Assembly (NCBI GenBank): GCA_014871385.1
Contig: CM026426.1
Span: forward strand, 68,874,674-68,938,673
DNA: 64,000 nucleotides
Source of the DNA: Ceratodon purpureus
Taxonomy: Eukaryota; Streptophyta; Bryopsida; Pseudoditrichales; Ditrichaceae
Reading direction: 5' to 3'
Each line of letters begins with the position of its first letter. The stretch's first letter is position 1. The notes under the pieces are model-generated. The model was not told the origin of the DNA, made no database searches, and saw only the letters and a list, made by a program, of their open reading frames with translations. The translations under genes were made by a program, and so were the position numbers. Of this stretch, positions 24,169 to 55,619 are shown piece by piece.

Positions 24169-24659
24169 TGAAAATTGAAGATTCAAAAATGAAAATTGAA
24201 GATTCAAAAATGAAAATTGAAGATCCACAAATGAATTTATAAAATATATCTTTTGAAATATATATAAGTAAAATTAAGTCTTCAAATATATTCATAAAAA
24301 AATATATCAATCTTCAAATATGTTTAAGTCTTCAAATATATTCATAAATAAGCCTCCTATCATCAAATATATTTCAAAGGTTTGATTAAAACACAAGTTA
24401 TCAAACCTTTGAAATATATTTGTAAAATATATTCATAAGGAGGAGAAATATATCATAAGAGATATATTTCTCTGAAATATAAGAGAAGACAAGTGAGATA
24501 ATATAATTTCAACAAGTCATGTGTCTTTATATACTATACTCAAGCAATAAAAATAGGAAAGATGTTTTTGAAAGTATAGTACACCTCATATTTAGAATTA
24601 TCTTTTTTCATATAAACACAAACTGTTTAAAAAATAAATAAAAAATGAAGATTTGACTT
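24169..24659 (+). repeat. Dispersed AT-rich repeat forming the left target flank
   Basis: Starts with a 21-bp tandem (CAAAAATGAAAATTGAAGATT, about 3.5 units). It continues as AT-rich sequence whose last 190 bp match, in reverse complement, the repeat at 55.25-55.43 kb. It stops abruptly at GATTTGACTT, where the 16-kb insertion begins. The matching locus at 55.2 kb continues from the same point without interruption. Confidence 0.8.
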
Positions 24660-24688
24660 AAGGGATATTTAGGTAATTGTGGACAAAA
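24660..24688 (+). repeat. Left terminal inverted repeat
   Basis: Begins AAGGGATATTTAGGTAATTG and continues TGGACAAAA. It pairs with 40769-40796 at about 24 of 28 positions with one gap. Confidence 0.8.
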
Positions 24689-25250
24689 AAAAGTCCAGAA
24701 TTCAAAAATGACCAATGCGAACTCAGCGGACCGCCGATGGATGGAGACCACAGATGAACAGTGTCATTGTACATGAATACCACAGAATATGGAGTGCAAA
24801 ACTGGACATCGAGATGTGCATGGGCGGAATTTGCCAGTGATGGATATATGAGTCCGAAGATTGCGACATATAATGCAGAATAAGAGTTACAATGAATACT
24901 TTAAAGAATATCATGTTGATTCAAGTAATGAAATGTACAATACAGAGTCGGCGACCCGCCGATAATAGAACACGCTAAACTAACTAGTCCCGTAGCACTT
25001 TGAGTCATGAAGTCCTACAACATTAAGTCTACACCCAACACTATGTACCAAGTTGACGTAAATCCTATCACATTATAACCTACTCGGAAAACTATTTCCC
25101 TGAAAGCATAGCCGTAAGGTCAATGAGTAAATCATATATTTGAAGGCCGCACAAACGGGTCGACCAAGTCGGCGGGCAGCCGATGGAAGGTGTTCTGTTG
25201 GTCAGGAGGAGGGAAGAAGTGCAAGTTGGAGGCGAAAAAGTCCGCCTAAC

Positions 25251-26039
25251 TCAGTCCCAGCAAACTTCAGTCCAGTCCACTCGTACACGTCCAAACTTTC
25301 TCGCAGCTTCAATTGCCCAGTGCACTTGCCCCGGCCTACACGCCTGCGCCATATACTCCGGTACAGATCCGAACTTGTGCAAGGGATAAACCAGAGGAAG
25401 GATATCTGTAGCAATGTTAGGTATAACGCCGTCATCGTTCGGAAAGTTTAGATGACTCTGAAAAGGCCAAGGAATGTAGCACATACAGTTTGGTGTCCTC
25501 CTCAATGACCTCGGGTCAACATCCACAAATAGCACCTGATCTAGTTTGCAGACGTTTCTAGACTGTACCTTGGAGCAAACTTGACCTAACGTCTTATAAC
25601 TCCAGGGGAAATTCTCCCGGTCGATAAGGTCACTTCTGCTATACACGAAGGACAGCCTCTCCATTACACCGGCCGGCAGAATATGTGTGAGTAAAGGCTT
25701 CAGTTCTCCCAAGGGCATCTTCGACCACAGACCAACATGGAAATGCAAGAAAAGCATGTCGAAAAGCTTCTTCAAACCTGGGCGCTTCACTACATTCCGA
25801 TGCGTATCCCATGGCAAAGCCTCTATCCTGGGATCCACATAGCAGAGAAGGCCATTGACGCATAGGACAATACATTTCTTGACATGATGAGGTGGACCGT
25901 GAAGGCATTTGAAATAAAACGAGGAACCCTGAAGAATATGAAATGCAATCAGTGAAGGAAATCAAGGAACAGGACGAAGTATATGAAAGAAATGGACTAC
26001 ATTCAAAGTCGTCGGCGACCCGCCGACAAAACGATGCAT
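25251..26039 (-). CDS. FCP1/NIF-type HAD protein 3, nucleophile lost
   Basis: The main exon 25928-25251 starts after a clear acceptor (ATATTCTTCAG). A short first exon 26039-26001 joins it in phase and supplies an ATG, giving 238 aa. That first exon is tentative, and it contains one copy of the 17-bp palindrome read as VGGSPT. The protein follows the NIF-like HAD layout: motif I region KKCIVLCVNGLL, then RPGLKKLFDMLFLHFHVGLW, later VLFVDVDPRSL and a tail. In the family, motif I is D-x-D/N, and here the first Asp is Cys. If the frame is right, this copy is unlikely to be an active phosphatase and may be a binding or regulatory paralogue. It is the outermost gene of the left arm, downstream of two related genes on the same strand. 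Confidence 0.6.
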
Positions 26040-26237
26040 TGAAGAAACCTCAAAGGTAAATGTGCAGCAAGTGAAATGTCATGCATGCATCTACAAAAAG
26101 AAGTACCGAATTGCAGCACTGGAAACAATTGTGTGGTGCAGGGAAGTTCAGAAAGGGAACAGTCTTAGCGTATTAAACTAAAGAGTGCAGAGTATCATAT
26201 GTGATTTTTAAAACTAGTGGCGCCGCTGATAAAGGCT

Positions 26238-27368
26238 CTAATCAGTCGGCTGCCCGCCGATGATGGAACTACCAGGGGCCTCAGGAGGACAAGGTAAATT
26301 CACAAACCAAGATCCAGGATCACCCGGGACGTCAAACCCGCATGCATGAGAAGGAATAACCTCCCTATACTTCTGGTATTCGCGAGATCCTGGAAAAAGA
26401 CGTGGCTTCCCCACGCTAGAATTCTTCCTACAATACTCCTGGACATCCAATCCAGACTGCTTAAGTCCTGCAAGGAATGGTGTAACTACCCTAGTTAAAT
26501 AGGGATTGGGGGTGGGTTGAGGTTCTTTGCACTCTGCAGAGTCCCAGAAAAAAGAATTCGGATGGACAGCGCTAAATGGATGATTAAGTACATTCCTATA
26601 AGGGCGGTCGTCTACCAGTAGGGTATTCTGGACAGTAGCACCTGATCGAGCCAGTAGCCTAGTGTCGCAGAAAAGTCTATCCAGACGCTTCAACAAGTAC
26701 TCCCGTTTCCCATTCGGATTAGTCCTTGTTGAGATATCACACCAGAATCCTGGAAGGCGTCTGTAATTGCTCCTGAGCAAAGGATGAATGGCTAACAGCT
26801 TCTGGAAGTGACGATCGAGATTCTTTTCAGAAACCGTGGACCAAAAGACTACCTCGAAATTCGCCGTGCAGAACTCTAGAAATGAAAGAAGTCCTGGTCT
26901 AGCCCGGATATGAATTTTTGTCTTCTGGTCATCATCGATATACCCGTGGTGCTCCGCGATGGGCGATCCCTTAATGTCAAGGACAAGGTAGTATCGTTGG
27001 AGAGGTACCTCAATATTACGCGCAATAATACCAGTGCTGACACTGACGGAATCATCGCGCGGGGAACCGGTGCGCGGGATCGCGACGTTGGTCTCGACGA
27101 ACGAGGTGGAAGCCATCGCACACCGGCCAGAGCTATGTGCAGCAGACAGCGTCGGCGGCCCGCCGACTGGATAGTCGTACTCGTCCTTTCCATCACATTC
27201 ATTCTCGGCTTCCGCTCCCGGAGACTCTTCTCTGTGAGCATCAGCATCAGGAGATGTTGGGTACTCCTCCAAGAGCATACTAAGAAGGGAAGGTCCCTGG
27301 TGCACTTCAATTTTAGCGTCATCCTCCAGTGACTCCTGAAAAATGAAGGACAAATTCCAAGAAAACAT
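26238..27368 (-). CDS. FCP1/NIF-type HAD protein 2
   Basis: An open frame of 376 aa. The HAD core begins at about residue 125 with YYLVLDIKGSPI, followed by ARPGLLSFLEFCTANFEVVF and TLLVDDRPYRNV. These are the usual NIF/CTD-phosphatase-like blocks (motif I aspartate, WS block, DD block). The second motif I acidic residue is replaced (DIK), so activity is uncertain. The N-terminal 120 residues are acidic and Ser/Pro-rich. The 17-bp palindrome occurs in the coding region at 27151-27167 (read VGGPPT) and again at the last codons (GGQPTD then TAG). A strong acceptor (CTTCATTTTTCAG) sits at 27336, so the true start may lie in an upstream exon rather than at 27368. Substrates are unknown. Confidence 0.65.
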   Translation of the reverse strand: MFSWNLSFIFQESLEDDAKIEVHQGPSLLSMLLEEYPTSPDADAHREESPGAEAENECDGKDEYDYPVGGPPTLSAAHSSGRCAMASTSFVETNVAIPRTGSPRDDSVSVSTGIIARNIEVPLQRYYLVLDIKGSPIAEHHGYIDDDQKTKIHIRARPGLLSFLEFCTANFEVVFWSTVSEKNLDRHFQKLLAIHPLLRSNYRRLPGFWCDISTRTNPNGKREYLLKRLDRLFCDTRLLARSGATVQNTLLVDDRPYRNVLNHPFSAVHPNSFFWDSAECKEPQPTPNPYLTRVVTPFLAGLKQSGLDVQEYCRKNSSVGKPRLFPGSREYQKYREVIPSHACGFDVPGDPGSWFVNLPCPPEAPGSSIIGGQPTD

Positions 27369-27592
27369 GGGTGATCATTCGCATGCTCACAATTCATACT
27401 TGCTCTAGTGTACAAATGGAGACACAATAAGACACCCACGACAGAATACACAGTCTCGACACTGAGTTCCGTTCTCATATATTTAAAAGGAGGAAAACTT
27501 TATTTACTGAAAAAGTCTAAATACATGAAGATCCCATCGGCGGGCAGCCGACTGAATCATGTGCATGCTCTCTAAAACAATTTCTACATCTA

Positions 27593-30500
27593 CTATGTTC
27601 TCTTTCGTTTAGGGCAATCAATGTGTGGAGAGAAGAGACTATAAGCTTCATCCCCCAGAAACAGACGACGCTGACCGAATTCGGAGTGTTTCTGGCAGTA
27701 CTCGGGCACGGGGAGTTTGGATTCTTTCAAACTTGTAAGCCAAGGAATCAATTCTCCAAGCAGATAATTCCTCTTATTTTCCGACTCCTTCGACTCGAAG
27801 GTATATGGTGTAGGGTGCACAGCGTTCCAAGGAGTGTTTGCGACATTCTTATAAGGGGAATCATCAACCAAGAGAGTGTTAATTGAAGATGCCCCCGTCC
27901 CCTTCAGCCTGTCATCGAGGTCAAAGAGGGTCTGGAGTCTCTTCAAATAAAACTCCCTACTAGCCTTATGTACGCAAGTCTCGCAGAAACTCTGGTCGAA
28001 CTTGTAGCGCACTTCGGCATCTAGACGAGGACAGCCCTGCTGCAACGCTGTCCACAGAATCTGGAACCTCTTTTCCTGAACGCAGCTCCAGAAGACCACC
28101 TCAAAATTGTCCAGGCAGAACTCTAGGAACTTCTCTAAACCCGGTCTAAGTTTAGTATTCCACCTAGTACCCTGCTTCGTCTGGACTAATAGCAGGCCGT
28201 TAATATCCAGAACCAGAAAGTACTTCAGCACTGGATCGTGTACCTGAGTACCAGCCTGTTCCGGGGCTATGTGAAGTGGATTCAGAGGTGGAGGTCCCTG
28301 CTCCAGAACTGCACTGGGTCTATCTTCGTGAAGTTTTCCATGGACTTCCTTGTCCGCGGACTCTGGAGTGACAGAAAACGAAGCAGAGGACAAACATGAC
28401 GGTTAGGATGACGGTCGGCGGACAGCCGACTTGCAAGCAACATTATTTGAAAAAAGGGAAAGCGTACAACTTGGCATTTGCCGAAAATTTATTCATATTT
28501 GGCAGTACAAACATCTAACACAATCCTAGCGCCCGATCACTACACTAAATTATCAATGTAGGCATTTAAAAGATGGACTGGGCCACCGCCTGATTCACTG
28601 ACCTCCACCTTTGTGCTTCTTCGGCCTAGGCTCCCGTTTGGATGGCCGCACAGGTGAGAGAACGTCCTCTGGAGCGTCCACATTCCTGGGACTCATGAGC
28701 AGATCCCCAGATGTGCCCTTCTTGGAGGAAGTCTTCTTCGAAGCAGCCTTCCGTTTGCCCTTCCCAGAGGACTCCTCCCCTTCATGAACCCCTGAGGAAT
28801 CACGGGATAAGTTACCCACAAGAGAGGAATCCTGCGCAGTACCATCGGTCTTACTTCTCTTCATTGATCGTGTCTTAACCAGAGGGTTCTCATCCGGGCC
28901 AATCATCCAAGTTGCGCCCTTCACACCTTGAGTGACGAATGCGATTGACTTCCCTGTCAACTTGGTCTTGGCAGAGGGGTTAGATGAGGTTTGCTCGTCT
29001 GCCGTCGGCTGCCCGCCGACGGCAGTAGGAGGAACATGCCCTTCAATGCTCACTGCAGGCTCCTGGGTTGGCTTCTGGACACGGAGAACCACTTCATCGT
29101 CAGGCCTCGATGCTAGAGGAACCTGCATCTTCTTTGGACGCCCCGCCTGGTCTAAATCACGTTCTGGCTCGGCGGGAGGAGTCTCCTGCTCTTGAAATGT
29201 AGGAGAAATAATACTGAAGCTGAGGGAGTCAGTTCCGGTCTCCCGTAGAACTTGCGACAACGGTGGGTTCACGTAACGAGGATTCAATTCTTCCAGTGGT
29301 AATACGTCGGGTTCTGGTTCATAGTCTAAGTCCTCCGTGTCTCGCTCCTCTACCTCTGCATCTCCAGTTGGAATGAAAGCCTCAGCTTGGTCGTCCTCGT
29401 TTCTTGGCAGTTCCTCAGCATCTCCAGCTTCATCTTCAACGTCTGGGTCGGGTACATCTGGTGGCTCCTCGTCGACATCGTCGTCGGAGTCCAGATAACT
29501 CTGTGAGCGAACCCCCGCAGTCTTCCCCGAACCCATACATCCACCCTTCCCGACCAAATGGGCCTCCTCCGCATTCACACCCAAGTCGGCAGCCGTGAGA
29601 GAGCCAGTCCTGCCTCTAGCAGAGGCGGGGACAGACGGCCCGGCCCCAGACTGCGTGGTCTAAATTGGAGCTTGGACGGGCACGTTATAAACGCCCGGAA
29701 TGAACGTCATATTCCGAACCCGACAGTGCGCTTCGTATCTCTCTTCCTCGGTACGCACGATCTCAATTACAGTCAAATGGTTTTTCTGCAGCAGAACAAG
29801 ACGAAACGGTTAAGGAAATCTTCTACCCAAGAAACACGAAGGATTCAATCAGCGTCGGCTGCCCGCCGACAATCGGTGAGCAAACAGCGAAGGCACCAGA
29901 AGAGACTGCAGTAACTTACCAGAGCGAGGGCCGTGACGTTCCCCCCTCCCCAGCAATTGATCACCCGAACGTCCTCAATCTGCATCGCTTTCTCCAGAAG
30001 AGATTGGAGGAAAGAGTAACTAGCGTGGCAGTGTCCATTTGACCAATCCTCCCCAAGATGATCTTCTCCTTCGTCCACATAGGGAGGAAGCGAACGTTTC
30101 AAACCAGTAAAGTCCGAGAAGGTATTCCATACATCCCCGGGCGTTGTTCTTGGATACATAACGGGCACATGAACCTTGGGTCTAGAGTCAATGAGAGAAC
30201 TCCTTTGAAACCCGGCGGAACTATCAGGGAAGTACTGCATAGTATGAACCGTCCACGAATTACTCGTCAGCCTTGACACGCCTTGAAGAGTGTGATTACA
30301 CTCAGCATCGAGTAGCCACAAGGATGGGGTGACAAGCTTATTCACCTTAATTGTATCTACCTCCCCATCCAGAATGACCTCCTCCTCCACCTCACGGTGA
30401 ATCCTCTCAGCGACAGTTATAACGTGTTGTTGTCGCATGTTCGGCATCTCCTTTCCCGCTGGATCGTAGCCAAAGACTACGAACATCTCATACTGCGCCT

Positions 30501-33500
30501 TGTCGAAGGAGAACGCTCCGCGAACGACAAGAGCTGTGCACACTTCACCCAGGTCCTGTGCAATCCGGGCATCGAACTGTACAGACAACTGCGAAGACTG
30601 GTCCACATCCGACTTCCAGTACTTGTGCACAATGTCTTTGAAGAATTCGGGTGTTGGCCCGTGCGACGGCGTGAGCGGATGATTCCGTCCCTTAAGCCAC
30701 TCCTTCCCCTCAGGACTATCTTCCAAGTCAGCCCGGATATTACTAATCATCGTATCATTGAACCCCTTCTCAACTTGAAGGGAATTCTAGTCATCCATGC
30801 TCCACTCAATATGCTTCCCAGTCCCTGGTTTCTTCAGTGCAAAGCCCCTGTAAATACACATGAGCTCGTTTCGGACAACATACTCGTATTTCACATGCTT
30901 ACACCAATTCTCCAATGATGTTCCATCCCGTTGAACCACCTCTTTCCCAGTGACCTTGACGTACACTTTAAGGTCCAGAATTTCCTTGGCCAGCCTCTTG
31001 CATTCGTGGTCCCGAAGACCGATCACGTACTGCATGTCGTTGAGTGTTATGTCCCGGCGGGCTGGCTTTGGGGGAAATCCTGGTTTCAAACCGTCCTCCC
31101 CAATGATCCTCCCCTCCTCCCAGGCGTCGAACACCAGTTGCCACTCGTTGTATGTTTCGTCAGACACGAAGACTAAGGGCAGCTTGAAGGTTTGGGACGT
31201 AGGGGACTTTCCGAGAATCGGACTGAGGTACTCCTTGCAGAACTCCTGCAAGGAAGAAGAAAATGACATTGATAAATAAATCCCACTTCTACAATACGGA
31301 GAACCACTTGAGCGTCGGCGGTCCGCCGACGACTTTCAACTACATGTAAACAACAGGAAAAGAGGAAGATGTGAATTACCTTCCATGCGCTGAAGTCATC
31401 TTTCTTGTCGATCCTCCACCGCTCGATCCATTTGGCGCGCATCTTCGCCAGCTGGGACCTGAAACTTACTTCGGCGACTTTATCCTTCACCTCGATGTTT
31501 AATGCGTTAGAGACCTTAATGAGGGTATCCTTGTTATCAGCATATACAGGAATGATATCCTCGTTAAGGTAATACTGCCGCATAGGAGAGTCCAGTGGTT
31601 CCTTCTCTCCCAGTTCTCGACAAGCCTCAAACGTGTGCTGGCCCCCAATTATGTACCAATGGATGAGCTCATCTTCATACCAAGGTACCAGCTTAGATGT
31701 GCCGTCATCCAGTGTAAGTGAATACTTGACATTTAGGGCTGGCAGAGGTCGAAGAAGTCCTTCCAAGCCTTTAAGCTTAATCTCGCCCGTCACTGGATCC
31801 TTTACTCCGGGGTCACCACTCATAGGAAGGCAGTACAGCTCGGGCTTCTTCCGGATTGCTCCAAGTCCTTTGTAGAAAAGACTTATCTGATCCTGCCTCT
31901 TCCTGAATATCGCTCTGTACTTAAATTCGTCGGGAGCTATGTGTATCCTGTTATATGGAATCTGACAAGGAAGGGCACGTTGCGCGTTGGGGAAGCAGTG
32001 CCCAAGTCCCTCCTCCAACGTCTGGTACATGGCAAGGACGTCGGTGTCCTTTGTTTTGGAAGTGAGATTGTTTGCGAGCATGAGAGCTTCCGCCACGGTC
32101 TGCTTTTTCTCTTCCTTCTTCCCACCTTTCTTCTTCCCACCCTCGCCCTCAGCAGCCGCTGCCTTTCCCTTCTTCCTTCTCGATGACTCCCCTGTCGTCT
32201 GTGTCTCTCCGGTCTCGGGGGTGACTGTACCAGTGCCCGCTTCTACAGCAGACTTGCGGCCGCCTCTTTTCTTTGCTGAAGGCTGAACCGAGTTCTTCGT
32301 CTTCTCTTCCATCACTTTGTCCCCGAGCGTATCAATCACGTCGAGTATCTGTTCAACAGCTATGTTCTCGCCCCTGCCCCAAGTAGCCGCATCCTGTACT
32401 TCTTTAGAGCACAAGCCATCCATGCACTTCTCAACCGGAATTACAACCGCGAAGCAGTCCACTGGTGTGCCCTCCGCGACAGGAACCGATGCAAACACCA
32501 AGCACACGTTGTCGTTATCCTCGCATTCCCTGGCTCCAATAATCTCAAATCTTGGTCCACCTGCCATTTGCTTCTGACCTATTTTGGTCACGAAGCCCAG
32601 CGACGTGGGAGTGTCACGCCAGGTGATGCCCCACTCCGTTATCTTCGAATCAGCGAGGAATGTCACCCTCGGTGTCAAGCCCCGTGCTCGTATTTGTACT
32701 TCAGGATCAACAACCTTGTCACAGAGCCACCGTAACCCATTTGGTTTTGCGGTGGAGTCGACCATCACCCTGCAAAAGAAGAATCACAAGATTAGACCAT
32801 GAGATTCTCACTCCATCGGCGGACAGCCGACGGGGCGGATGGACACGCCCTCCCCATCGGCGGACAGCCGACGGAGGGAATAACCCATGTGAGAAAATAG
32901 AAAAATGAAGGACTCAGAAAGGGGTGGCGTCGGCGGTCAGCCGACGGGAGGAACAACCCCATGCGAGAGAACACAAAACATGAAGGGCAAAAGAAGGGGT
33001 GGCGTCGGCGGTCAGCCGACGGGAGGAACAACCCCATGCGAGATAACACAAAACATGAAGGGCAAAAGAAGGGGTGGCGTCGGCGGTCAGCCGGCGGGAG
33101 GAACAACCCCATGCGAGAGAACACAAAACATGAAGGGCAAAAGAAGGGGTGGCGTCGGCGGTCAGCCGACGGGAGGAACAACCCCATGCGAGATAACACA
33201 AAACATGAAGGGCAAAAGAAGGGGTGGCGTCGGCGGTCAGCCGGCGGGAGGAACAACCCCATGCGAGAGAACACAAAACATGAAGGACAAAAGAAGGGGT
33301 GGCGTCGGCGGACAGCCGACGCCACGGGACAAACCCATGCGAGAAAACAGAAACATGAAGGACAAAAGAAGGAGTGGCGTCGGCGGACAGCCGACGCCAC
33401 GGGACAAACCCATGCGAGAAAACAGAAACATGAAGGACAAAAGGAGGAGTGGCGTCGGCGGACAGCCGACGGGAGGGACAAACCCATGCGAGAAAACGGA

Positions 33501-33649
33501 AACATGAAGGACAAAAGAAGGGGTGGCGTCGGCGGACAGCCGACGGGAGGGACAAACCCATGCGAGAGAACAGGAACATGAAGGACTCAAGAAGGGGAGC
33601 GTCGGCGGACAGCCGACTTGACAACTTACCCACTCTCGGAGGCTGCCAT
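27593..33649 (-). CDS. ParB-like / methyltransferase-like / HAD multidomain protein
   Basis: Five exons join in phase: 33649-33630 (ATG, donor GG|GTAAGT), 32769-31380, 31245-29920, 29785-28603 and 28362-27593, exactly 1563 codons. Residues 8-160 are globular without a recognised family, and 167-230 are Lys/Gly/Glu-rich. Residues about 275-447 resemble a ParB/sulfiredoxin fold (IPYNRIHIAPDEFKYR, then WYIIGGQHTFEACRELG like the ParB GxHR box). About 895-940 resemble a C-terminal SAM-binding motif of DNA methyltransferases (VINCWGGGNVTALAL, then VIEIVRTEEERYEAHCRV), but no DPPY/DPPW box was found. From 955 to 1305 is a charged, probably disordered linker. From about 1307 a NIF-type HAD domain follows (YFLVLDINGLLL, then TLLVDDSPYKNV). 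Two in-frame TAG codons occur at 30789-30787 and 29662-29660. The segment after the second has no early ATG. All four introns contain the 17-bp palindrome. ParB and methyltransferase calls are fold-level guesses. The exon structure is stronger. Confidence 0.65.
32815..33617 (+). repeat. Tandem array of palindrome units in intron 1
   Basis: Ten head-to-tail units of 75 bp (last two junctions 74 and 73 bp). Each carries GTCGGCGG(T/A)CAGCCGAC, with palindromes starting at 32929, 33004, 33079, 33154, 33229, 33304, 33379, 33454, 33528 and 33601. Two more palindromes at 32815 and 32856 precede the array. The spacer (ATGCGAGA...ACATGAAGG...AAAGAAGGGGTGGC) is conserved. The whole array sits inside the 860-bp first intron of the ParB-like gene. 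The 75-bp period keeps several frames open on both strands. Those frames are artefacts. Confidence 0.95.
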
Positions 33650-34658
33650 AACGTCGGCGGATGGCCTTTCACCGTCGGCGGATGACCTTCGAACAGCAGC
33701 CGACGCGCGCAGGTGAAGGAGCCGACGCCCTCAACCCTAGCAGCCGACGCAGAAAAACCTAGCAGCCGACGCGACCTCTGCGGAGCGCTGAGAAGAGGAC
33801 AAAAGAGAGCTGAAAAAGAGAAGGCTGGAAATGAGGAGGAAATGTCGGGGGTGGCGGGTGTATACCCTGCAGACCCCCACCTCCCGAGACTGAATCGTCA
33901 CGCCCGATGGGTCATGACGTATGGCTATGTACATACCATCCATGCATGGATGGTCATCCCTAACATCCGTCCCATCACGCCACGTAGGATGATGATGGGA
34001 CGTCTTTTGACCTTTTTTCAATCCGTCACCAAGTCATGATGGCGTGGGCATGTGATGTGACAGCTGCTCCAATCGCCACATTCAAATTCGTAATAATGAA
34101 CTAACATTGTTGTGTGACGGCGGGGGTATCTCGCCGCCATGATGGGATCTTGATCTGTCCAAGGCGCGCAAAATTGAATTCGATTCTGGCGCCAATTTGT
34201 ACTCCTGAGAATTCATAACTAACCCCCCGTCAGATGCGCATACTTCATTCTATTTCTGTCATTGCACTTTCGATTCCCTCTGAGAGTGCTCCTGACGCAC
34301 ACGTTTCTTGAGAGGACCGTTATTATTCCCGCATGTGCTTAACTGTCCCGCACCTTCTGTTGCCGTTTCTGTTGTCTTCGTCTATCGTTTCTGATTGGAC
34401 GGTTGAGAGGAGTCTCTCATTGGACAGGTTAGGGACAGCATACTGCTTCTCAACTAAGGTCCCCTGCAATTTCTGTCGGCGGACGTGGCCGTCATCGTTG
34501 GCGGATGCTATTTCTGTGCACACTCCGAGTCGTACGATCCGCGTCGGCTGCCCGCCGAGTCGTCTTCGTTGTCGGCGGATACATTTTACTCCGTCGGCGG
34601 GGACACATCCCGTCGACCCTGTCGGCAGTCCGCCGACGAGGTCTTCATCTTTTATCCA
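33650..34658. promoter_or_regulatory. Divergent promoter hub of the giant element
   Basis: The 1009 bp between the two outward-facing start codons. It holds clustered half-palindromes (GTCGGCGGA at 33653 and 33675, then CAGCCGAC-type halves up to about 33775, and again at 34475-34605), full copies at 34543 and 34621, and a perfect 20-bp palindrome ACCATCCATGCATGGATGGT at 33935-33954. The latter contains the RY element CATGCATG, a B3-domain target. Function as a bidirectional promoter is inferred from gene arrangement. Confidence 0.55.
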
Positions 34659-37600
34659 ATGGAAGTAGAGCCGATCCAGACGTTTCTAAGGAATGGCCGA
34701 TCAGGGCGGTGGAAGGTTAAAAAGGGCGTTTTCGTGGCCCTTACTCATTCTGGGCTCTATTATGCAGGCAGGGCAGTGATCCAACGTGTTGTAGAATTTG
34801 ATCCTATAGTGGTGGTGGTAAAAGTGATTGAGGTTTCAGACAGCATGGAAATGAATATACCATTTCCGGATGAGGGTGTGAAGTCCTTGAGCAACTGCTT
34901 AGGACAAATGATATTATGGGAGGCGGCCGACCTCAGGCCTTTCGGAGAGGTGGAAGACGATGACATCAACGCCGTCGGCTGCCCGCCGACGGATGTTGAA
35001 GAAGATGTCAAGCCCGTTCAAGAAATCCTGGACCTCGCAGAGCAGATGGAAGTTGCGCTCCTCGAGGAATCCGGAGGCTCAAAGCGTTGTGTAGCCGCTG
35101 GAGTCATTATGGAGTGCTCTCCTAAAGGAACGTGGGAGGGGTTCTTGATTCCTCACAGCTTCTTTATAATAGTGAGATCGTCGTCCGTCAATCCAGAATT
35201 CTCTGAAACACCTGCTTTCTGCGAGTTACCGAATGTGTTAACGATCGAGTGTGCTGTGGGGCGATTGGTACTTTGGAGTGGATACAAGGTATGTCCACTT
35301 GTGAACGGCGCGTTGGCTGGCACATGTCCCGTTGGCTACCCGCCGACGGAACCTCACTTGGGGAACGATAATGAAGAAATTGATGAAAGCAACTCCGCTC
35401 CGTCTGAGCAGGATCTGGGGACTAGGTCTCCAATGAATATTTGCAATGACGACGATGTGTCTAAACAAGGGGAATCCGACGTAGAAACAGATGATCATTG
35501 TTGGGGTCCGGATTCCGGGACCTGGGGTACTCCTTCTACTCCAGATGCTTCTTATCCTGACCGCCACCTCTGGAGAAATCGGTATGTCGAACTTCTTAAT
35601 GATGATCTATCAGTCCGTGGTAGAGTAATGATTCAAGTATGTTTACCGGACGAGGCATGTGATAATGAAGTCCTAGGGGATACAGAGGTTGGAGTTCTCT
35701 TTGTCTCTGAAGACGATCATCTGCAGATGACAACTCTCAGATGGCGTCTGACTCACACTCGGTTAGAAGGGGGTCACCTTCTCTCTGATATAATTACTTA
35801 CTGCTTCGAGAATTTAGCAGACGCCGACGCGGACGATGGTCTGGATGGTGTCCCGAAGAATGCCTATCGATCGGTGCGGAGGAAAGTTCGCAAAAAAGAT
35901 GACGTCTCTTCCACTAAGCTTCGTCGAATGGTTGTCCCTGCCGAATGCCGCTTAGTGAGCTCAAAGCGCTGTTGCAAGGACCGATGTTGCCAGACTTTTA
36001 GATGGGAAGATACTGTGAGTATTCGTCGTAAATTTTACGCAACAACATTCGAGGCGAGGCGAGAGATGTCCTTCGCTCTGCAAGGGCACTTACATACTGT
36101 ACCCGGCAAGCGGAAGCTCTATGTTACTCTTGCGAACGTTGGCGTATGTGAAGTGGCGTGGTATATCATTCACGGAGTATCGAAATCCGCGTACTACAGC
36201 TACAAGGCTTCGGCCCGAAGTGGTCGTGTCAATGGGAGTCACGGAAATTCCGGTGTACATCGTCCCCAGATTCACACAATCCAGGCCCGCGCGACGTTGA
36301 CCACTATCGTTAATGAGAATGCGGACCAAATGCCCAATGAGTTTCGGATGATTGGCAAGAAGAGAGTGGCCGCGCTCAAAGTACTCCAGTCTGCGATGAA
36401 CTGGAATCACATGCGCGAAATGGCCAACGCCGTAAGTTCCTCCTCATCTTCTTTCACTTTGGATAGTTTACTGAATTGTAGTGATTACTATCGTCGGCTG
36501 CCCGCCGACTGGATGACGAACTTCCCAACTGATCGACATCACTCTGTGCTATTCAGGTCAATGAGCAGTGCAACGCGAAGCTGATTTCGCAGTCCTCCGT
36601 TAGTCGCATGAGGAAGGAGTACTTCCGCAACGTTGAGGTCAAGGCAGTAGGAAGTAATTTCTCCAAGTGCACCGAGTGTGACTTCCTCGTTGAACTCATT
36701 GCCAAGTATCCAAGAGGGTCGGACGAGTGGCAGAGCTTGACAGAGGATAGGACCAGGCATTTGAACTATCAGCGAGCTTGTCGCAACATTTATTACGGAT
36801 GGACAACCCAATCTATACAGAGTCCTACTGAGTTCCTATGCATCATACATGATAAGATGGACACATCGAAAACAGCGATCCCCCGCATGCAACGTATCAC
36901 GAAGGCTACGGCAGGGCTTGGTCAAATTCCGATTTCCTGTACTGGAATGCTGACTCACGGTCACGGAGATGGCGCCTACGCACACTATGCAACTGCCCTG
37001 TGGCCAGGAGACCCAAATTTCACAATCTCTTCGTTGTGCAGGGTATTCCGTGCCTTGGAGAGACTACCTGTCCGAGAGTCAAAAGCACTCTTCGAGGCAC
37101 CGCCACAGAATGAATTCTTTGCAGCGCTAATGCATGGATCGTCACGTTGCATCCCCTCAATTCCACCTTCTAGAGATGAGCCACTCACTCCACCTCTGCC
37201 TGGTAGGCCTGCTGTTCCTTTGCCGAAGAAGTTGTATCTCCAGCTTGACAATTCTGCGAAGGACAACAAGAACCGGTTTCTTCTAGCATTCTGCTCGTTG
37301 CTGACGGCAAGGCGAATATTCAAGGAAGTTACAGTTGGTTTCCTGATTGTGGGACACACACATGAGGACATCGACGCCCACTTCAGTCACCTATCGAAAC
37401 TCATTAAGCGAAAGAACACATACTGCCTTGCCGACCTTATGAAGGCATTCATGGATTCTCAGAAGACAGTTGCCTTTATTCCAGAGGTTGTTCAGGAAGT
37501 GGCAGAGTTCAAAAGTTATGTTGCTGATTTTCATCACGACGGAGGTAATGCGATAGAAGGTCACAGTGAAATGCATCTTTTTAAGTTCTATGTGGTGGAG

Positions 37601-38569
37601 GATGGGGAGGATGCGGGGTGGCCCGTGATGAGGTACAAGAAGCGTGCAACTGATCCGTCATGGCTTCCACCTGGCATACCCGTGAAAATGTGGAGGGCAG
37701 ACAAAGAGGGTAAACCACGTTTGCCCGTCGGTGATCCCAAACCGGTTCCTCATAAGCACTTATGGGGTAGTGTTGAAGTCGATGAGGGCAAGAAGAACGC
37801 GGATAAAGAGGTGGCAAGGGTAGCGGAGTGTTCAGAGAAGAGAAATTTCATTAAAAGTGGATTATCTAAGTACATTGAGTACTGGAGAACTGGCATGGCT
37901 CGGGATAAGAAATACGCACAAGACATGTTACCATATGTACTGTATTGGGAGCGAATTTTAAAGGAGGTCAACGAGCCACTGCCCCCCAATTCCGCCACCG
38001 TACAGGAAGGATTCTGGCCTATCTCAGACTGGAAGCGGGACCACGTCACCACATTCGATGCAGAGGACGAATATATACCGGATCCGGATATTCGTCCCGG
38101 TGACGAGGATGAGGTGGAGCCCTATCCTTTCTGTGGTCCAAAAAACTCTAGGCCGAAGTCTGTGTTTAACCCATATCGTGACGTTTTACGTGGCGATTGG
38201 GTTTTCTGTCGTCCGTGTAAGGAAGACCACCTACCCATTTGGATGGGTAGGGCGATAGAGCCTGTTATAACAGAGCCTGGTCCTAATTACGGTAAGTTCA
38301 AGGTTGAATGGTGGACTCCGATGAAGGGCAAGAAGGAAGGTAAGAAGAAGGTTGCGAGAGAGTGCTGGACAAGACGGTGGGAAAGGGAGTTGACTCTTGC
38401 GGAGTGGGTGGAGTGTATATCCGTTGTATACACTCATAGGACCAAGAAAACTACGCATGAGGGGCCCCCAAAGTCCCATCTAATACCCGAAGATGTTGTG
38501 ATTGCTGCCATGGCAAACTTCGAATCGCATGGAATCTCGATGAACTGGAATGACGAGGAGGAAGACTAG
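34659..38569 (+). CDS. DUF7869-type putative DDE transposase
   Basis: Two exons, 34659-36431 and 36557-38569, join in phase (GCC|GTAAGT, CTATTCAG) to 1261 aa with no internal stop. I chose the ATG at 34659 because an in-frame upstream ATG (34485) would translate through the palindrome-rich hub. The N-terminal part contains copies of a small beta-rich unit (for example VAAGVIMECSPKGTWEGF ending AVGRLVLW) resembling DUF8039, seen in plant transposon proteins. A Cys cluster (SSKRCCKDRCCQTF, about residue 437) and a conserved HGNSG precede the catalytic region. Aspartate candidates are HDKMD (about 707), YLQLDNSAKDNKN (about 820) and GHTHEDIDAHFS (about 855). This is the DUF7869 pattern, thought to be an RNase H-like fold. 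Function as the transposase of this element is inferred from family and position. The intron carries one 17-bp palindrome, and the stop codon overlaps another. Confidence 0.8.
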
Positions 38570-38585
38570 TCGGCTGCCCGCCGAC

Positions 38586-39920
38586 GATTGTGATCTTAGC
38601 TGTAGAAGATGTAGCTAGTGATGGTTTCCTCTGTAAACGTTATAGTTGAATATTGTAAACACTGTGATTCCTTCGAATAAGAATTGTATTCTACCGTAGA
38701 CCCAATACTAGTCATGTATTACGCTTTGTCTTCTATTTGTTGTTCTGATGCCTTACTTTTCCTTCTTCGGTGGTCGTCGGCTGTCTGCCGATGCCTCTAA
38801 CCATGTTAGATAAGCATCATGAACGGTGACTTTGTGAGGCTGGTCTATATTGTATGGCCTGTGATTTTTACGGTGGACACTGTTAGTCTAGTCGGCTGCC
38901 CGCCGACGCTTTCCACAAAATTGGTAGAACCACTATGCGCTTTGATAAACTGATCAAAAATATTTATCCATTTCATTATATTCTTATCGGAGTACAACGG
39001 TAGTGTTCCGCCCTTTACATGTTACTTTGTATTGTGTATACATCAATGATGCCACTACTCCTAAAGCCTCAGTAACAAATGCTAACCATGAATTCTACAA
39101 CTATCCGAGTGTGTGAAGCAGCTCTATTGAAAACGAGGTGGACAATTCTAACACACACTAATTCACCTCAAAGCCCAAAAACCAAAAAGCTGCATATGGT
39201 CGCCAACGCCATGAAGCGATCAGTCCTTCGCAGTAGACTTGGCTCGGACAACACTACACCCAGTATCAACGGATGGATGCACGGATCCAAACGACGAATA
39301 CGTGGACTGCGGGCTTGCGTTCCCTCCGCACCACTGATCTTGGCCAGAGCACCGACTTCCAGCACCCTCCGAGATGTCGTAAGCTTCGTCAACAAGGCGG
39401 AGCCACCCTGCAGTTCACATGGTTTGCGTTGACACTTCCCCTGTGTGGCTGAAGTGAACACTGCCAACACTCCCGGACTCCTCGGACTCCTCGGACTCCT
39501 CGAACGTCAGTGGGAAGGCGATGCCGGAAGCGTCAGAGATCTCCAACAACTCAATGCTGTGAGCAATACTCCAAAACCACCGCGCACCTGGCTGCAGAAG
39601 GCGTGGGATGTATTTGAAAGCTGGAATGGCGGTATTGCGAGAACGGGCGACCACCGCCCTATACCATGGCCGGAGCTCCTTGAGGGTAGCCGGTGTCTCC
39701 CGACCAAATGGTCGCTTTACATTGCTACCCCGCCTCCCCATAACGACAAAATATTGGACAATATGCGACTAACTTCTACAGTATGCGCCTTGCTTCTACA
39801 GTATGCGACCTTCTTCTACAGTAGACAGCCGACGAGTTCGTCTAGTAAACTGGTAAACGTTCTAGTAATCCACTTCTCTAGGGTTTTCTGGACGACTAAT
39901 TGCCAACGTCGACCTAGTCT
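38586..39920. other. Right-arm non-coding region
   Basis: No recognised gene. Palindromes lie at 38776-38792 and 38891-38907. Overlapping short frames at 39168-39741 (-) and 39445-39951 (+) have no family resemblance. A short (CTCGGACTC) tandem at about 39474-39501 explains part of them. The stretch is probably 3' UTR and subterminal DNA of the element. Confidence 0.5.
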
Positions 39921-40220
39921 AGTAGCCCCTACTCCCCTACTCGGCTGGTAGCCGACTAGGACTAGCCTACTCATCATTTGCATCATTAGGACTAGGACTT
40001 ATTTACTCATCATTAGGACTAGTAGCCCCTACTCTCCTACTCGGCTGGTAGCCGACTAGGACTAGCTTACTCATCATTTGCATCATTAGGACTAGGACTT
40101 ATTTACTCATCATTAGGACTAGTAGCCCCTACTCTCCTACTCGGCTGGTAGCCGACTAGGACTAGCTTACTCATCATTTTTATCACTAGGACTAGGACTT
40201 ATTTCCTCATCATTTTTATA
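39921..40220 (+). repeat. 100-bp tandem repeat, three units
   Basis: Units start at 39921, 40021 and 40121 with AGTAGCCCCTACTC. Each contains a variant palindrome CTCGGCTGGTAGCCGAC (39940, 40040, 40140) and CTAG/GGACTAG-rich spacer. It is subterminal within the giant element. Confidence 0.9.
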
Positions 40221-40504
40221 TCTATTTCAAATTCCAGAGGTCGGTTCAGTGAGGAAGAGGTTGGCTCTCCTAGTCGGCGGCCAGCCGACTACAAAGGACT
40301 TCCATTCGTTGTGACTGTGAATACTGTTCATTCTAAACGACAACTCCGGAGTCCTCACAGACGGACACTCCAATGTGAGATGCTTGGCAGTCGTGTCCAC
40401 TCAGCGGGTCGCCGACGATCTTCCCTTCACCCGCTTCACTTCACAGATCCACATTTTGCAGAGCAAGTATTTCCTTTTATTAGAACAGATAGATTTCTAA
40501 GGAT

Positions 40505-40557
40505 AGGGTTTCTAGGGTTTAGGGTTTCTAGGGTTTAGGGTTTCTAGGGTTTAGGGT
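40505..40557 (+). repeat. Telomere-like repeat (TTTCTAGGGTTTAGGG)3
   Basis: Three units of a 16-bp degenerate plant telomere dimer (TTTAGGG alternating with TTTCTAGGG), about 240 bp inside the right end of the giant element. The next 17-bp palindrome variant follows at 40563. Confidence 0.9.
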
Positions 40558-40768
40558 TCTCAGTCAGCCACTCGCCGAGAGATTCGGCCATGACAGTGGG
40601 ACTGGGATGTCCTCTATTCAACATTATAATAAATTCACTCAAATGATTTTATCCCTTGTAAACGGAATGCATTTTTTCATAAATAGTTGACATCTTTGTC
40701 TTTAAATTTGAGGGATAACACATGAATTGGACGTCTACTGATGATGCAAAGTAGTCCATAATTGAGCG

Positions 40769-40796
40769 TTTTGTCCATAATTACTTAATTCCCCTT
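40769..40796 (-). repeat. Right terminal inverted repeat
   Basis: Reads TTTTGTCCATAATTACTTAA then TTCCCCTT on the plus strand, the inverse of 24660-24688. ACTT follows at 40797-40800. Confidence 0.8.
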
Positions 40797-40800
40797 ACTT

Positions 40801-41010
40801 CCAAAATAAAATTAAAAGATAGTAAATACTATAGTCAAGCGATAAAAAATAGAAAAGATGTTTTTAAAAGTAAAACACACCTTATATTTATAGTTATCTT
40901 AAGTTCATGTGGATACAAATTGTTTAAAAATAAAGATAAATGAAGATTAACTCTCAAAGCAAAATAAGAAGTAAAATAAATATCATAGTTTGAAGCTTAA
41001 ATTTAGATTG
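40801..41010 (+). repeat. Right target flank of the giant element
   Basis: Continues the dispersed AT-rich repeat interrupted at 24659. From AGTAAATACTATAGTCAAGC to about TAAAGATAAATGAAGATT it matches the second unit of the uninterrupted copy at 55.05-55.2 kb (reverse strand). Confidence 0.8.
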
Positions 41011-41604
41011 TACTATGAACTATCAATTATTCAATTATTAAATATACTATTGAAGAACAAAAAATATAAAAGTGTTGATGTTTGTGAATGTGTTAGTGCG
41101 TGAGTGTGTGACTCTGAGGGTTTCAGTGCGGGGTTAGGGTCTGGTGTAGGGTAGAATGAGGCTGCGTTGGGGTTGCTTGAAGGTATATGATTAGCGGTAA
41201 CAATGTTTGTTTACACTGTTTTTGTATTGCAATTATTACATGACATTGTTTGTTTAGAGTGTTTGTTACTCTGTTTGCTTTGTTGTGTAAGATCAGAAAA
41301 TGTTACTTGCATGCTGGATTGGTACTCAGTTTTTATCTATCATTGCTTGGTGAATTGAATGGATGCATAGACTTGTATAGATGTTGAGTGTAATGTTGTA
41401 TTTTTACGATTCTTTTTTTGAATTTCCACTTATTATATAATTAAAAGAATCTGTCTTTTGCGGAGGAGGCTTGTCCCTCCTCCAACAAATACGCCAACTA
41501 AATGGAAGTCATCTCCGAGTATGAAGACAAAGGTAACGACGCTTATCGTGAAGGTTGAAGACCGCAGGATAGCCTCGATGTCTCGTCTGTAATACTTCCA
41601 GACA

Positions 41605-44210: not shown

Positions 44211-46016
44211 ATGCCTCCACAAAAGCTACCTCTTGACCAGATCAATGACGTCAAGGAAACAATCCAGCAGGACGATCTTGACCCTACTAAAGAACTCTTA
44301 CCATACTTGAAAGAGAAGATGACAGCCTTGGCTGCCAAGAACGAAGCCACGAATGCCAAACTAGAACTACTAAGCATCTAGTACCAAAACCTCCATGGAA
44401 TAGCTACCAATGAGGATGTCCACGCCACACCACAAGACTTGGAAGCGCCGTTGGATTCTCTCAGATCAACCACCCTGCCTAGGGAAAACCGCAGGGCTGT
44501 AACATCCCAGAGCGGGGGTGACCAAGACCAAATCACCAAGTTTCCAAAAATTCCCTACCCAGTATTTGATGAGTCTGGGAATCCGGATTGGCACATACGA
44601 CGATTCAAGGTGATTGCTTAAACCAATGATATCCTTAGCTCCGTGAATTTATAGAACATTTTTGAGACTACGCTCCAAGGAAATCATATCAACTGGTATA
44701 TCGATTTCGAAACTGACCATCCCCATGCAAATTGGAATGACATGGAACGCAGCTTCTTGCATGAGTTCCGGAAGCTCAAGACAACTTTGGAAATACTTCG
44801 CGCTTTGGGGAGCATTACCCAAGCTAAAAACGAGCCCGTGGATAAGTTCTACAACAAGTTCAAACAATTATCGGACAAACTCAACCAACGCCCTGAAGAA
44901 GACTATTTATGTGAATGGTGCAAAAAGAGACTATTACCATGGATACAACAAGGAATCGTTATCCGTGGCGTCAAAACATTGAGTGAAATTCTCAACGCTG
45001 CCAATGACATCAGACGCGAGCTTGGGGGTTTGAATTGAACTCAAGCGCCATTGTTACCATTGCCAACCTTGAGATCAGAAAACTGTCCTCCTCTTACAAC
45101 CTGCGGCACCTGTGGTAAGATTCATAGCGGTCCATCCTGCTTTGCGCGAGGGAGCTCTTGCCCAAAGGACATTTGGCGGCCACGACCTACAACTGCAGCC
45201 ATGTACGCCGAGGAGATCATTGTCGACGCTTTTCAACCAGGACGCAATGACGCATGTTGGGAATGTGGATCCCTCAACCATCAAAGGAGTCAGTGCCCGG
45301 TTCTCAGACAACGGTGGGCTCAGCCGCAAGGACCTCCAGAACATAATAGATCCATGCCTACATCCATGGATACTCAGAAACATACCACACCTAACCGCCG
45401 AGGTGGAGTTACCTTAACTCAGGTACATGGGACCGAGACTAAATTCTCCACCATCAGTGCCACTGCGGTCACCACGCGCTCCAAAGCCACGGAAACAGAC
45501 CACGTGGTAGAACATAGGAAACCATTTCCTACTGACCATTGGGATAGATTATATAACATCCGAAAGGATCTTCAAAAAGGTTTAGAACTCACCACGGTAA
45601 ATCCAGAACTCCAATATATCTTGGACGACACCAGTGTAACCATAACCTTATCTAAATTACTCAAATTGAGCCTTGAATTACAACAGTATTTGCAGCAGGC
45701 TAACATGCCCGAGACCAGAACCGAACCAGCAGTTATAGAAGTAAACGCCACTACTTTGGATCGTGATGCCACGGTCATCCATCTACAACTTGGACACCAC
45801 AAATTAACCAATGTATTGGTAGACAACGGTTCTGGCCTCAACGTTATGAGTGACCACCTGAGAAAACACCTAGGACTACCTCAACCAAAGATGGCCAAAT
45901 TCATCTTACGAATGGCCAATGACGATCCGGTCACACCCTTTGGGATCTTGGCCACCATAGCTATCACAACCATAGCTATCCACAGTAGCTATCCACACCA
46001 TAGCTATCCACAGTAG
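44211..46016 (+). pseudogene. gag and protease of the gypsy element
   Basis: Gag is readable from ATG 44211 with in-frame stops (for example TAG 44379 and TAA 44619). Retrotransposon-gag homology lies at 44742-45038 (MERSFLHEFRKLKTTLEILR and NEPVDKFYNKFKQLSDKL). Two CCHC zinc knuckles follow: CGTCGKIHSGPSC (about 45102) and CWECGSLNHQRSQC (about 45253). A retropepsin-type segment at about 45800 reads NVLVDNGSGLNVMS, the aspartic protease active-site region. It ends in a local duplication of CATAGCTATCCACA (45956-46015) that shifts the frame. Confidence 0.85.
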
Positions 46017-46024
46017 CAACTTTT

Positions 46025-49000: not shown

Positions 49001-49250
49001 GATTATCAACAGCTCAACGCCAAGTATTTCCAAGCTTCAAAACCGGCTTGAATTTTCCAAAAAGGAGATCAGGTACTCTGGTGTCCTCGTGATTCCAAGA
49101 TGAGTAAAACAAAATTTGAATCCATTTGGCATGGACCTTATCGAGTACAGCTAGTTTTACCAAATAAAACCGTGCTTTTAGTGAACAACGGCTGTTACGA
49201 CGCACAAGCCACTATTGTTAACACAAACAAACTTAAACAGTATCACACTA
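46025..49250 (+). pseudogene. RT, RNase H and integrase of the gypsy element
   Basis: The end of the protease domain (YPVILGRPWLRDMNAI) leads into reverse transcriptase: VKEQIDKLLKAKFISPVDSA, a frameshift at an A-run (about 46790), then DFRKLNAATKKDHYPLP and FERMPFGAKNAPMTFQRLM. The catalytic YLDD reads YLDN, consistent with a C-to-T change on the other strand. RNase H carries TDASNLAVGVML and MEREALAMIYAVKKF. Integrase has a partial HHCC finger (first Cys now Arg) and DDE residues in ATDYTTKWVEA, IVSDQRTHF and GNGQAESTNKTI, then a C-terminal tail near 49100. Stops at 46676, 47538 and 48057 among others. Confidence 0.93.
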
Positions 49251-54221: not shown

Positions 54222-54998
54222 AAAAACAACATTGTTTTTATCACATGGGATCCTGAAACTTTCTTTCCTCCGCACAATGATGTAATCTTGGAATTGAGTG
54301 ATGCAAAACAAGTGTATGCTCATAGAGCTACTTTGGTAAATGTTTTTTTGCTAGTAGCAAATTATCAGAACATTGATTACATTAACAACATAGTTGAATT
54401 CACTATCTTTTAATACTTTTGAATAATATCATATTCATTAAATTGGCCAATCCTTATTATATTGGTAGCTCAAATAGTGTGATATTAGTCCATTTTCTCT
54501 TTATATTTGATTAAAGTGGCGACCAATTTAAACAACATTGGCTAGTTCAAAGAATATGACGAAGAATCAACATAAACAATATGTCATTAATTTGTTATAT
54601 AAACTCGAGAAGATAAAATTTACATATTAAATTTTTATTGACTATTGCATATTTTATGATCATTACTGAAATTCTTCACAACCACAATAACAATGTTATT
54701 TGATTTATTCTAGGTGGGAAAATCCTATGCGTATAAAGTTTCATTTCCTCCTATGTTGGACAAGTTAATCCCAATTATAGTAAAAATGGACATGGAATAT
54801 AAACCTCTTGAAGCTTTTATACATTTCTTATATACTGGGTATATTAAAGATGAATATATGGACGCATTTTTGGACAAATTATTACGCGCTACTTACAAGT
54901 ATGGCATCTCTTTACTTCATGATCAATGTCAAAAAAAACTTATGAATTCAATTCATCTAGACCATATTTTTCATTATTATATACATATATTAAAATGA
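54222..54998 (+). pseudogene. BTB/POZ domain fragment
   Basis: Two exons, 54222-54335 and 54714-54998, join in phase (ACTTTG|GTAAAT, TTCTAG|GTGGGA). They read a BTB fold in order: FFPPHNDVILELSDAKQVYA, HRATL, then YKPLEAFIHFLYTGYI and LLRATYKYGISLLHDQCQ. These correspond to the SDV...AHR and FL.YLYTG...KYG..L blocks. There is no upstream start and no downstream domain, so it is a gene fragment, likely carried by the surrounding repeat. Confidence 0.65.
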
Positions 54999-55029
54999 TA
55001 TTTATATTTATCTAAATTAAATTGATATT

Positions 55030-55430
55030 TATGTTTATCTATATTAAAATGATATACATAAATTATCTAAATGTGGACACTTATCTTTATTTCTAAACAA
55101 TTTGTGTCCACATGAAAAAAAGATAAGTCTAAACATAAGGTGTATTTTACATCTGTTCTATTTTTTATTGCTTAACTATAGTATATCAAGACATTTGACT
55201 TATTTTACTTACTTTTTTTTTTTTAAAGTCAAATCTTTACTTATCTTTATTTTAAAAGAAATTGTGTCTACATGAAAAAAGGTATTTCTAAATATAAGTT
55301 ACGGTATACTTTTAAAAACATTTTTCTTATTTTCATTGTATTCGCGAAGTATATAAAGACATATGACTTGTTGAAATTATATTATCTCATTTGCCTTCTC
55401 TTATATTTTTGAATTGGTTTGTGATGATAT
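55030..55430 (-). repeat. Uninterrupted copy of the giant element's target repeat
   Basis: Two tandem diverged units on the minus strand. Read in reverse complement, the upstream unit matches 24470-24659 and the following unit matches 40801-41010 in the right order. The junction GATTTGACTT is followed by an A-run instead of the 16-kb insertion. Confidence 0.8.
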
Positions 55431-55619
55431 ATTTGTTTGTCTCATGAATATATTTTTCAAATATATTTCAAAGGTTTGATAACATGTATTTCTATCAATA
55501 TATTTGAAGACTTAAACATATTTGAAGATTCTTATATTTTTTATCAATATATTTGTAGACTTAATTTTACTTATATATATTTCATGAAGATATATATTTT
55601 ATAAATTCATTTTAGGATC

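Follow-up and report, generated by a model that had tools for sequence, protein, structure and literature searches.

What kind of mobile DNA occupies positions 24660 to 40796 of a 64,000-nucleotide stretch of the moss Ceratodon purpureus (contig CM026426.1, positions 68,874,674 to 68,938,673; the whole stretch is called the window below, with positions counted from its first base), and what could be reading the short palindrome that recurs throughout it? The segment is one insertion of 16.1 kb: it is bounded by imperfect terminal inverted repeats (TIRs) with an ACTT next to each, and its flanks rejoin on a paralogous repeat. We consider it moderately probable that this is a large Sola-like cut-and-paste transposon of mosses whose own DNA-binding protein reads the palindromes, as VANC reads the motifs of VANDAL elements. 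The palindrome array is its most unusual feature and was overlooked in a first-pass annotation of the sequence, which had proposed an undescribed class of giant transposon.

A palindrome array confined, in this window, to the element

The 15-bp palindrome TCGGC-N5-GCCGA occurs 31 times inside the element and not once in the remaining 47.9 kb of the window; 0.04 copies would be expected in the window as a whole. When arm spacings of 0 to 15 were scanned, spacing 5 was used exclusively (31/31), and the central five bases are variable. Seven one-mismatch palindromes also lie inside the element, with none elsewhere in the window. Two tandem arrays take up nine (75-bp unit) and three (100-bp unit) of the 31 exact copies, and the other 19 are dispersed. 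Only 4/19 dispersed copies fall in coding open reading frames (ORFs), which make up 69% of the sequence considered with the HAD ORFs counted from stop to stop (depletion, P = 3e-5); three lie in introns, which amount to 2.6% of the sequence (P = 0.013), and 12 lie elsewhere. Each of the three introns, one in the transposase gene (gene A) and two in a second large gene (gene B), has exactly one palindrome. Literature searched with general terms only yielded no description of such an array.

The half-site centers stand 10 bp apart, about one turn of DNA, which suggests that a dimeric protein reads the half-sites. The dispersed palindromes would then be putative binding sites of a homodimeric, element-encoded protein, for which the product of gene B is the first candidate and the transposase the second. 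Occupying its sites over the element's full length (noncoding DNA, every intron and the two tandem arrays), such a protein could mark the element as self and, by analogy with VANC acting for VANDAL, might keep it expressed against host methylation.

VANDAL elements are Mutator-like elements (MULEs). In the available part of the VANC21 report (PMC5735166), the motif is nearly confined to one transposable element family and occupies introns, upstream regions and noncoding tandem repeats, and binding of VANC in VANDAL21 is followed by loss of methylation and derepression. The array described here resembles that of VANDAL/Hiun in that a short motif, here confined to one element within the window, is found in introns, upstream regions and tandem repeats and avoids coding sequence. 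It differs in form, since in the same source the VANC21 motif is a 9-bp non-palindrome used in one orientation, whereas the present motif is a palindrome of fixed spacing that also enters a few coding ORFs; moreover, no VANC homolog was identified in the present element. As far as the available descriptions go, sequence-specific anti-silencing by a transposon belongs to Arabidopsis VANDALs only.

The main rival explanation takes the palindromes for binding sites of the transposase itself, forming an extended subterminal array, and not for sites of a regulator. The subterminal one-mismatch copies at 24723, 40401 and 40564 are all TCAGC variants and lie 63, 381 and 218 bp from the ends, respectively, as such a role would have it, and the TnpA protein of En/Spm (CACTA) elements binds many subterminal repeats, which likewise makes an element protein bind many short motif copies within its own element (putatively so here). 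The motifs of En/Spm are subterminal, however, whereas the palindromes fill all 16 kb, including introns and mid-element arrays, with no clustering at the ends. Because the layout is VANC21-like (introns, upstream positions, tandem arrays, avoidance of coding sequence, restriction to one element), we rank anti-silencing or self-recognition above transposase binding, to which we assign a real but minor likelihood.

Echoes of the palindrome in relatives

Relatives were compared as proteins only, by testing whether the peptides obtained on reading through introns can be spelled by palindrome DNA. For the gene A intron, 13 rows reading into the intron were chosen by eye from 75; the palindrome can spell ten of the 13 peptides with at most one mismatch (five with none), and the three exceptions, of 16-21 residues and 49-55% identity, show the lowest similarity and rank with the shortest. 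Among the 30 relatives of gene B, 13 were examinable at intron 1 and five of these are spellable (two with no mismatch), including P0126, P0128, P0140 and P0145, whose gene B products are 36-42% identical to the present one; the eight that are not spellable offer 1-25 residues of read-through. At intron 2 the single case, P0122, is spellable (1/1). Two exon echoes in Physcomitrium P0010, VGGPPI and IGGPPT, align with the sites at 34975 and 35332, the latter being one base off the palindrome. The intron peptides around the echo are unalike among the present element, P0002 and P0012, and the echo is kept.

Several observations limit how far these echoes can be read as conservation. Many of the relatives concerned are near-duplicates, so that each of the two genes is represented by a small number of independent lineages, perhaps three apiece; in shuffled pieces a one-mismatch echo arises with mean probabilities of 0.14 and 0.13; and over all 150 homologs exact echoes number 50, compared with 34 in shuffles. 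The case for conservation, as judged from these sequence comparisons, rests on the constant place of the echo and not on echo number. If the stretches are introns, selection on protein is excluded and the constraint, if real, falls on DNA. Some relatives appear to retain the palindrome in the same introns. Separately, the C-termini of P0017 and P0018 contain palindrome-like peptides (CRWSAD, CRRSTD) in an apparent second, downstream intron that the present element lacks.

These comparisons also bear on whether the palindrome is a repeat without function, either miniature mobile or gene-conversion in nature, that multiplied within the element. The two tandem arrays would then be local amplification, and the variable central bases would fit as well. 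Such a repeat would have had to stay out of all other DNA in the window, to persist amid otherwise unalike intron peptides and to recur at corresponding intron and exon sites of diverged relatives, and we regard this explanation as improbable.

A single insertion into an AT-rich repeat

The left end of the element reads ACTT, then AAGGGATATTTAGGTAATTGTGGACAAAA, and the right end, reverse-complemented, reads AAGGGGAATTAAGTAATTATGGACAAAA, with ACTT following on the plus strand, so that each TIR directly abuts its target-site duplication (TSD). Alignment of 24660-24688 with the reverse complement of 40769-40796 gives 24 matches, four mismatches and one gap. The score is 18, whereas 5000 shuffles of the terminal 40 bases reach at most 16; taken alone, the TIR is only modestly above chance. 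Against the empty-site repeat on the reverse strand, 212/268 columns are identical for the left flank and 173/260 for the right, and when the flanks are rejoined one alignment passes through the junction over a single ACTT with a score of 505.5, compared with 315.5 and 198 for the separate flanks and with 133 (left) and 122 (right) for the best of 100 shuffles each. This empty site is a paralogous repeat and not an allele, and it differs in a short linker on the right-hand side of ACTT. The two flanks (24400-24659 and 40797-41020) also resemble each other (120/157 columns), and we therefore take the target to be an AT-rich repeated sequence.

GC content lies at about 0.30-0.38 over the 5 kb on the left side of the element, is 0.47-0.59 within it and falls to 0.40-0.42 over the 2 kb on its right. 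The abrupt GC shift noted in the first-pass annotation hence holds at the left border, while the step at the right border is weaker. That annotation otherwise placed both borders correctly to the base, gave the imperfect inverted repeats their right length of about 28 bp, and recognized the flanks as halves of an uninterrupted reverse-strand repeat near 55 kb.

Could a chance TIR and TSD simply surround unrelated genes, with no single mobile unit at all? A TIR score barely above shuffles would allow it, but the ends abut matching TSDs, the flanks rejoin on a paralog and the palindromes stop inside the same borders, and we hold this to be very improbable. Given the TIR, the TSD and the rejoined paralogous repeat, a single insertion is the only comfortable reading. 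Within the right end of the element lies a plant-telomere-like repeat (TAGGGTT/TAGGGTTTC) at window positions 40504-40558.

The transposase and its classification

Gene A has one intron and an uninterrupted frame of 1261 amino acids. In structure prediction the product takes the form of an RNase H-type transposase in which Asp residues are conserved and which ends in an SH3-like barrel similar to BAH domains. The gene apparently encodes an intact cut-and-paste enzyme and, together with the ends, the TSD and the rejoining flanks, supports the earlier call of a giant multi-gene TIR transposon. Pfam names the domain only as DUF7869, as had been annotated; the KDZ transposase domain was not among Pfam matches to E 1, a search in which a weak match could be missed. 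In the model that we favor, the DUF7869 protein would cut the element out at its TIRs and integrate it, with a 4-bp stagger, in AT-rich DNA; the BAH-like tail of the protein, as modeled, may read chromatin. A literature search on BAH domains in DDE transposases of DNA transposons returned nothing.

The closest relatives are the environmental protein P0001 (646/653 residues identical), C. purpureus P0003 (KC19_7G136300, on chromosome 7 by its locus tag; 876/926 aligned residues) and P0004 (M758_UG068900, on the U chromosome by its tag; 828/950), followed by Physcomitrium P0010 (503/862). From P0003 and P0004 it follows that the transposase is present on at least two Ceratodon chromosomes. DUF7869 relatives extend to Riccia. 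Three more (L001, L002 and L003) sit on short contigs binned in three bacterial metagenome-assembled genomes; the contigs look eukaryotic, and their placement there is probably contamination.

Sola elements are described, in the available part of one review (PMC10741241), as having a DDD transposase, a 4-bp TSD, TIRs of 11-1124 bp and lengths mostly of 2-9 kb with some above 15 kb, and as occurring in Physcomitrella patens; a review table seen in part lists 'Physcomitrella Sola1' (PMC9033089), and the accessible text of PMC6431247 mentions none of Sola, KDZ, Zisupton, ParB or moss. The present element shares the 4-bp TSD (ACTT flanking it and a single ACTT at the empty paralog, in one copy only), short TIRs of 29/28 bp that fall within the published range as available to us, a putatively DDD-type transposase, the moss host and a size reached by some Sola elements. 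Gene B, the HAD genes and an array of palindromes go unmentioned in the portions of PMC10741241 and PMC9033089 that describe Sola. The element is probably a Sola transposon, likened by reviewed description and not by transposase sequence.

DUF7869 elements might instead form a DNA transposon superfamily of their own, with the TSD and DDD residues either convergent or due to shared RNase H ancestry. Pfam offers DUF7869 and nothing else, the name was not found in a literature search, the likeness to Sola is by description alone, and relatives occur in Riccia and on the eukaryote-looking contigs just mentioned. Against this, size, TSD, TIR range, DDD-type residues and the occurrence in Physcomitrella all agree with Sola as far as the review describes it (PMC10741241). 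A separate superfamily thus seems to us possible but unlikely, and on the same agreement the proposal of an undescribed class is not supported.

More tentatively, and with less confidence than we place in the Sola-like transposon itself, the element may represent a bryophyte lineage of giant Sola-like transposons in which an element-wide code of palindromes with strict spacing has stayed in the same introns and exons over deep moss divergence, an element protein reads it, anti-silencing or self-recognition arose independently of VANC in another transposon superfamily, and the transposase reads chromatin through its BAH-like part. If so, the moss array would make it testable whether motif arrays are a general escape of plant transposons from methylation, with Ceratodon and Physcomitrium as tractable plants for such tests. 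DUF7869, a domain without a named function, would gain a likely transposase role, and the element would add a well-delimited, large multi-gene DNA transposon to those of plants.

Gene B and the ParB question

Gene B lies on the minus strand in three exons, with a 1301-codon frame that is open save for two in-frame TAG stops in exons 2 and 3; because of these, it may be crippled in the present copy while the transposase is still open. Thirty relatives were found at E 0.001, and for 27 of these identity is 34-44%. Two relatives sit on contigs equal in size (149,496 and 460,842) to contigs carrying DUF7869 relatives, a hint that the two genes are linked in relatives as well. The structure model of gene B is of low confidence.

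Gene B had been annotated as ParB-like, which raises the possibility of a ParB/parS-like partition or DNA-modification system with the palindromes as its centromere sites. Over 39 columns its motif IIGGQHTFEACRELG can be aligned to the GxxR box of ParB, with an hhalign E value of 0.011 in a single comparison (0.1 for the reversed and 0.53 for the N-terminal control), but the hhalign probability is 4%. No ParB family appeared among Pfam matches at E 10 for any of the 30 members of the gene B alignment (30/30), nor among PHROGs and NCBIfam matches at E 10 for four gene B relatives, and tblastn against phages at E 10 with one piece of gene B and with P0122 found none. Under a ParB-methylase hidden Markov model built from four phage proteins, of which three have a clear methylase part, 62/200 shuffles outscored gene B and 41 outscored P0122. 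A literature search joining ParB with transposons, moss and eukaryotic DNA methyltransferase also returned nothing. We accordingly regard the ParB-like label as unconfirmed and consider a partition or modification system quite unlikely.

HAD genes and feature coordinates

The HAD genes of the first-pass annotation are confirmed as three ORFs whose Pfam NIF bit scores (50.3, 34 and 24.6 for ORFs 1-3) all exceed the gathering score of 21.8. From their sequences they look like paralogs, ORF 1 and ORF 2 being identical at 88/226 residues. Like plant FCP1/NIF-like HAD phosphatases they match Pfam NIF, and LDINGLL and VDDSP, kept by ORF 1 alone of the three, are common to P0155; the catalytic motif of those phosphatases is, by eye, missing from ORFs 2 and 3. 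Coordinates are collected in Table 1.

Table 1. Features of the element and its target site (window positions; Palindrome, exact TCGGC-N5-GCCGA).
Feature	Position	Strand	Basis
Left TSD ACTT	24656..24659	.	Seen in sequence, alignment
Left TIR, 29 bp	24660..24688	+	Alignment of ends
One-mismatch palindrome (TCAGC), subterminal, left end	24723..24737	.	
Palindrome	24948..24962	.	
Palindrome, 82 bp past HAD ORF 3 end	25169..25183	.	
HAD/NIF ORF 3, stop-to-stop, catalytic motif degenerate	25251..25961	-	Pfam NIF E 2.2e-5
Palindrome between HAD ORFs 2 and 3	26012..26026	.	
HAD/NIF ORF 2, stop-to-stop, catalytic motif degenerate	26238..27374	-	Pfam NIF E 2.8e-8
Palindrome, HAD ORF 2 3' end	26246..26260	.	
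Palindrome within HAD ORF 2	27152..27166	.	
Palindrome between HAD ORFs 1 and 2	27537..27551	.	
HAD/NIF ORF 1 (LDINGLL, VDDSP), stop-to-stop	27593..28402	-	Pfam NIF E 2.7e-13, relatives
Palindrome between gene B and HAD ORF 1	28415..28429	.	
Gene B exon 3, one in-frame TAG	28595..29785	-	
Palindrome within gene B exon 3	29005..29019	.	
Gene B intron 2, 134 bp, contains palindrome 29855	29786..29919	-	
Palindrome, gene B intron 2	29855..29869	.	
Gene B exon 2, one in-frame TAG	29920..31245	-	
Gene B intron 1, 134 bp, contains palindrome 31315	31246..31379	-	
Palindrome, gene B intron 1	31315..31329	.	
Gene B exon 1 (ParB-like short motif GGQHTFEACRELG), start assumed	31380..32765	-	ORF, relatives
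Palindrome, 51 bp upstream of gene B exon 1	32816..32830	.	
Tandem array of 10.2 units of 75 bp, with 9 exact palindromes and 2 with one mismatch	32857..33617	+	
Palindrome upstream of gene A	34544..34558	.	
Palindrome, 37 bp upstream of gene A ATG	34622..34636	.	
Gene A (DUF7869 transposase) exon 1, start codon assumed	34659..36431	+	ORF, relatives
Palindrome, gene A exon 1; aligns with VGGPPI echo of Physcomitrium P0010	34975..34989	.	
One-mismatch palindrome, gene A exon 1; at IGGPPT echo of Physcomitrium P0010	35332..35346	.	
Gene A intron GTAAGT..CAG, 125 bp, contains palindrome 36494	36432..36556	+	Splice inferred from Ceratodon model P0003
Palindrome, gene A intron	36494..36508	.	
Gene A exon 2, encoding the catalytic core (RNase H-type) plus the SH3-like (BAH-like) barrel at the C terminus	36557..38569	+	Pfam, structure model
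Palindrome, first base is the base after gene A stop codon	38570..38584	.	
Palindrome downstream of gene A	38777..38791	.	
Palindrome downstream of gene A	38892..38906	.	
Three 100-bp tandem units, each with one exact palindrome (39941, 40041, 40141)	39919..40214	+	
Palindrome near right end of element	40274..40288	.	
One-mismatch palindrome (TCAGC), subterminal, right end	40401..40415	.	
One-mismatch palindrome (TCAGC), subterminal, right end	40564..40578	.	
Right TIR, 28 bp	40769..40796	-	Alignment of ends
Right TSD ACTT	40797..40800	.	Seen in sequence, alignment
Paralogous empty target repeat, single ACTT	54987..55480 (about)	-	Flank alignment

Neighboring features of the window

Three neighboring sets of ORFs were read by eye. 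Those at window positions 9113-10972 (minus strand) resemble an R2R3 MYB transcription factor gene, which would be an ordinary gene of the host in the vicinity of the element; those at 45039-49954 (plus strand) resemble a Ty3/Gypsy retrotransposon polyprotein split into frames; and those at 58018-61636 (minus strand) resemble a CACTA-type (Tnp2-like) transposase.

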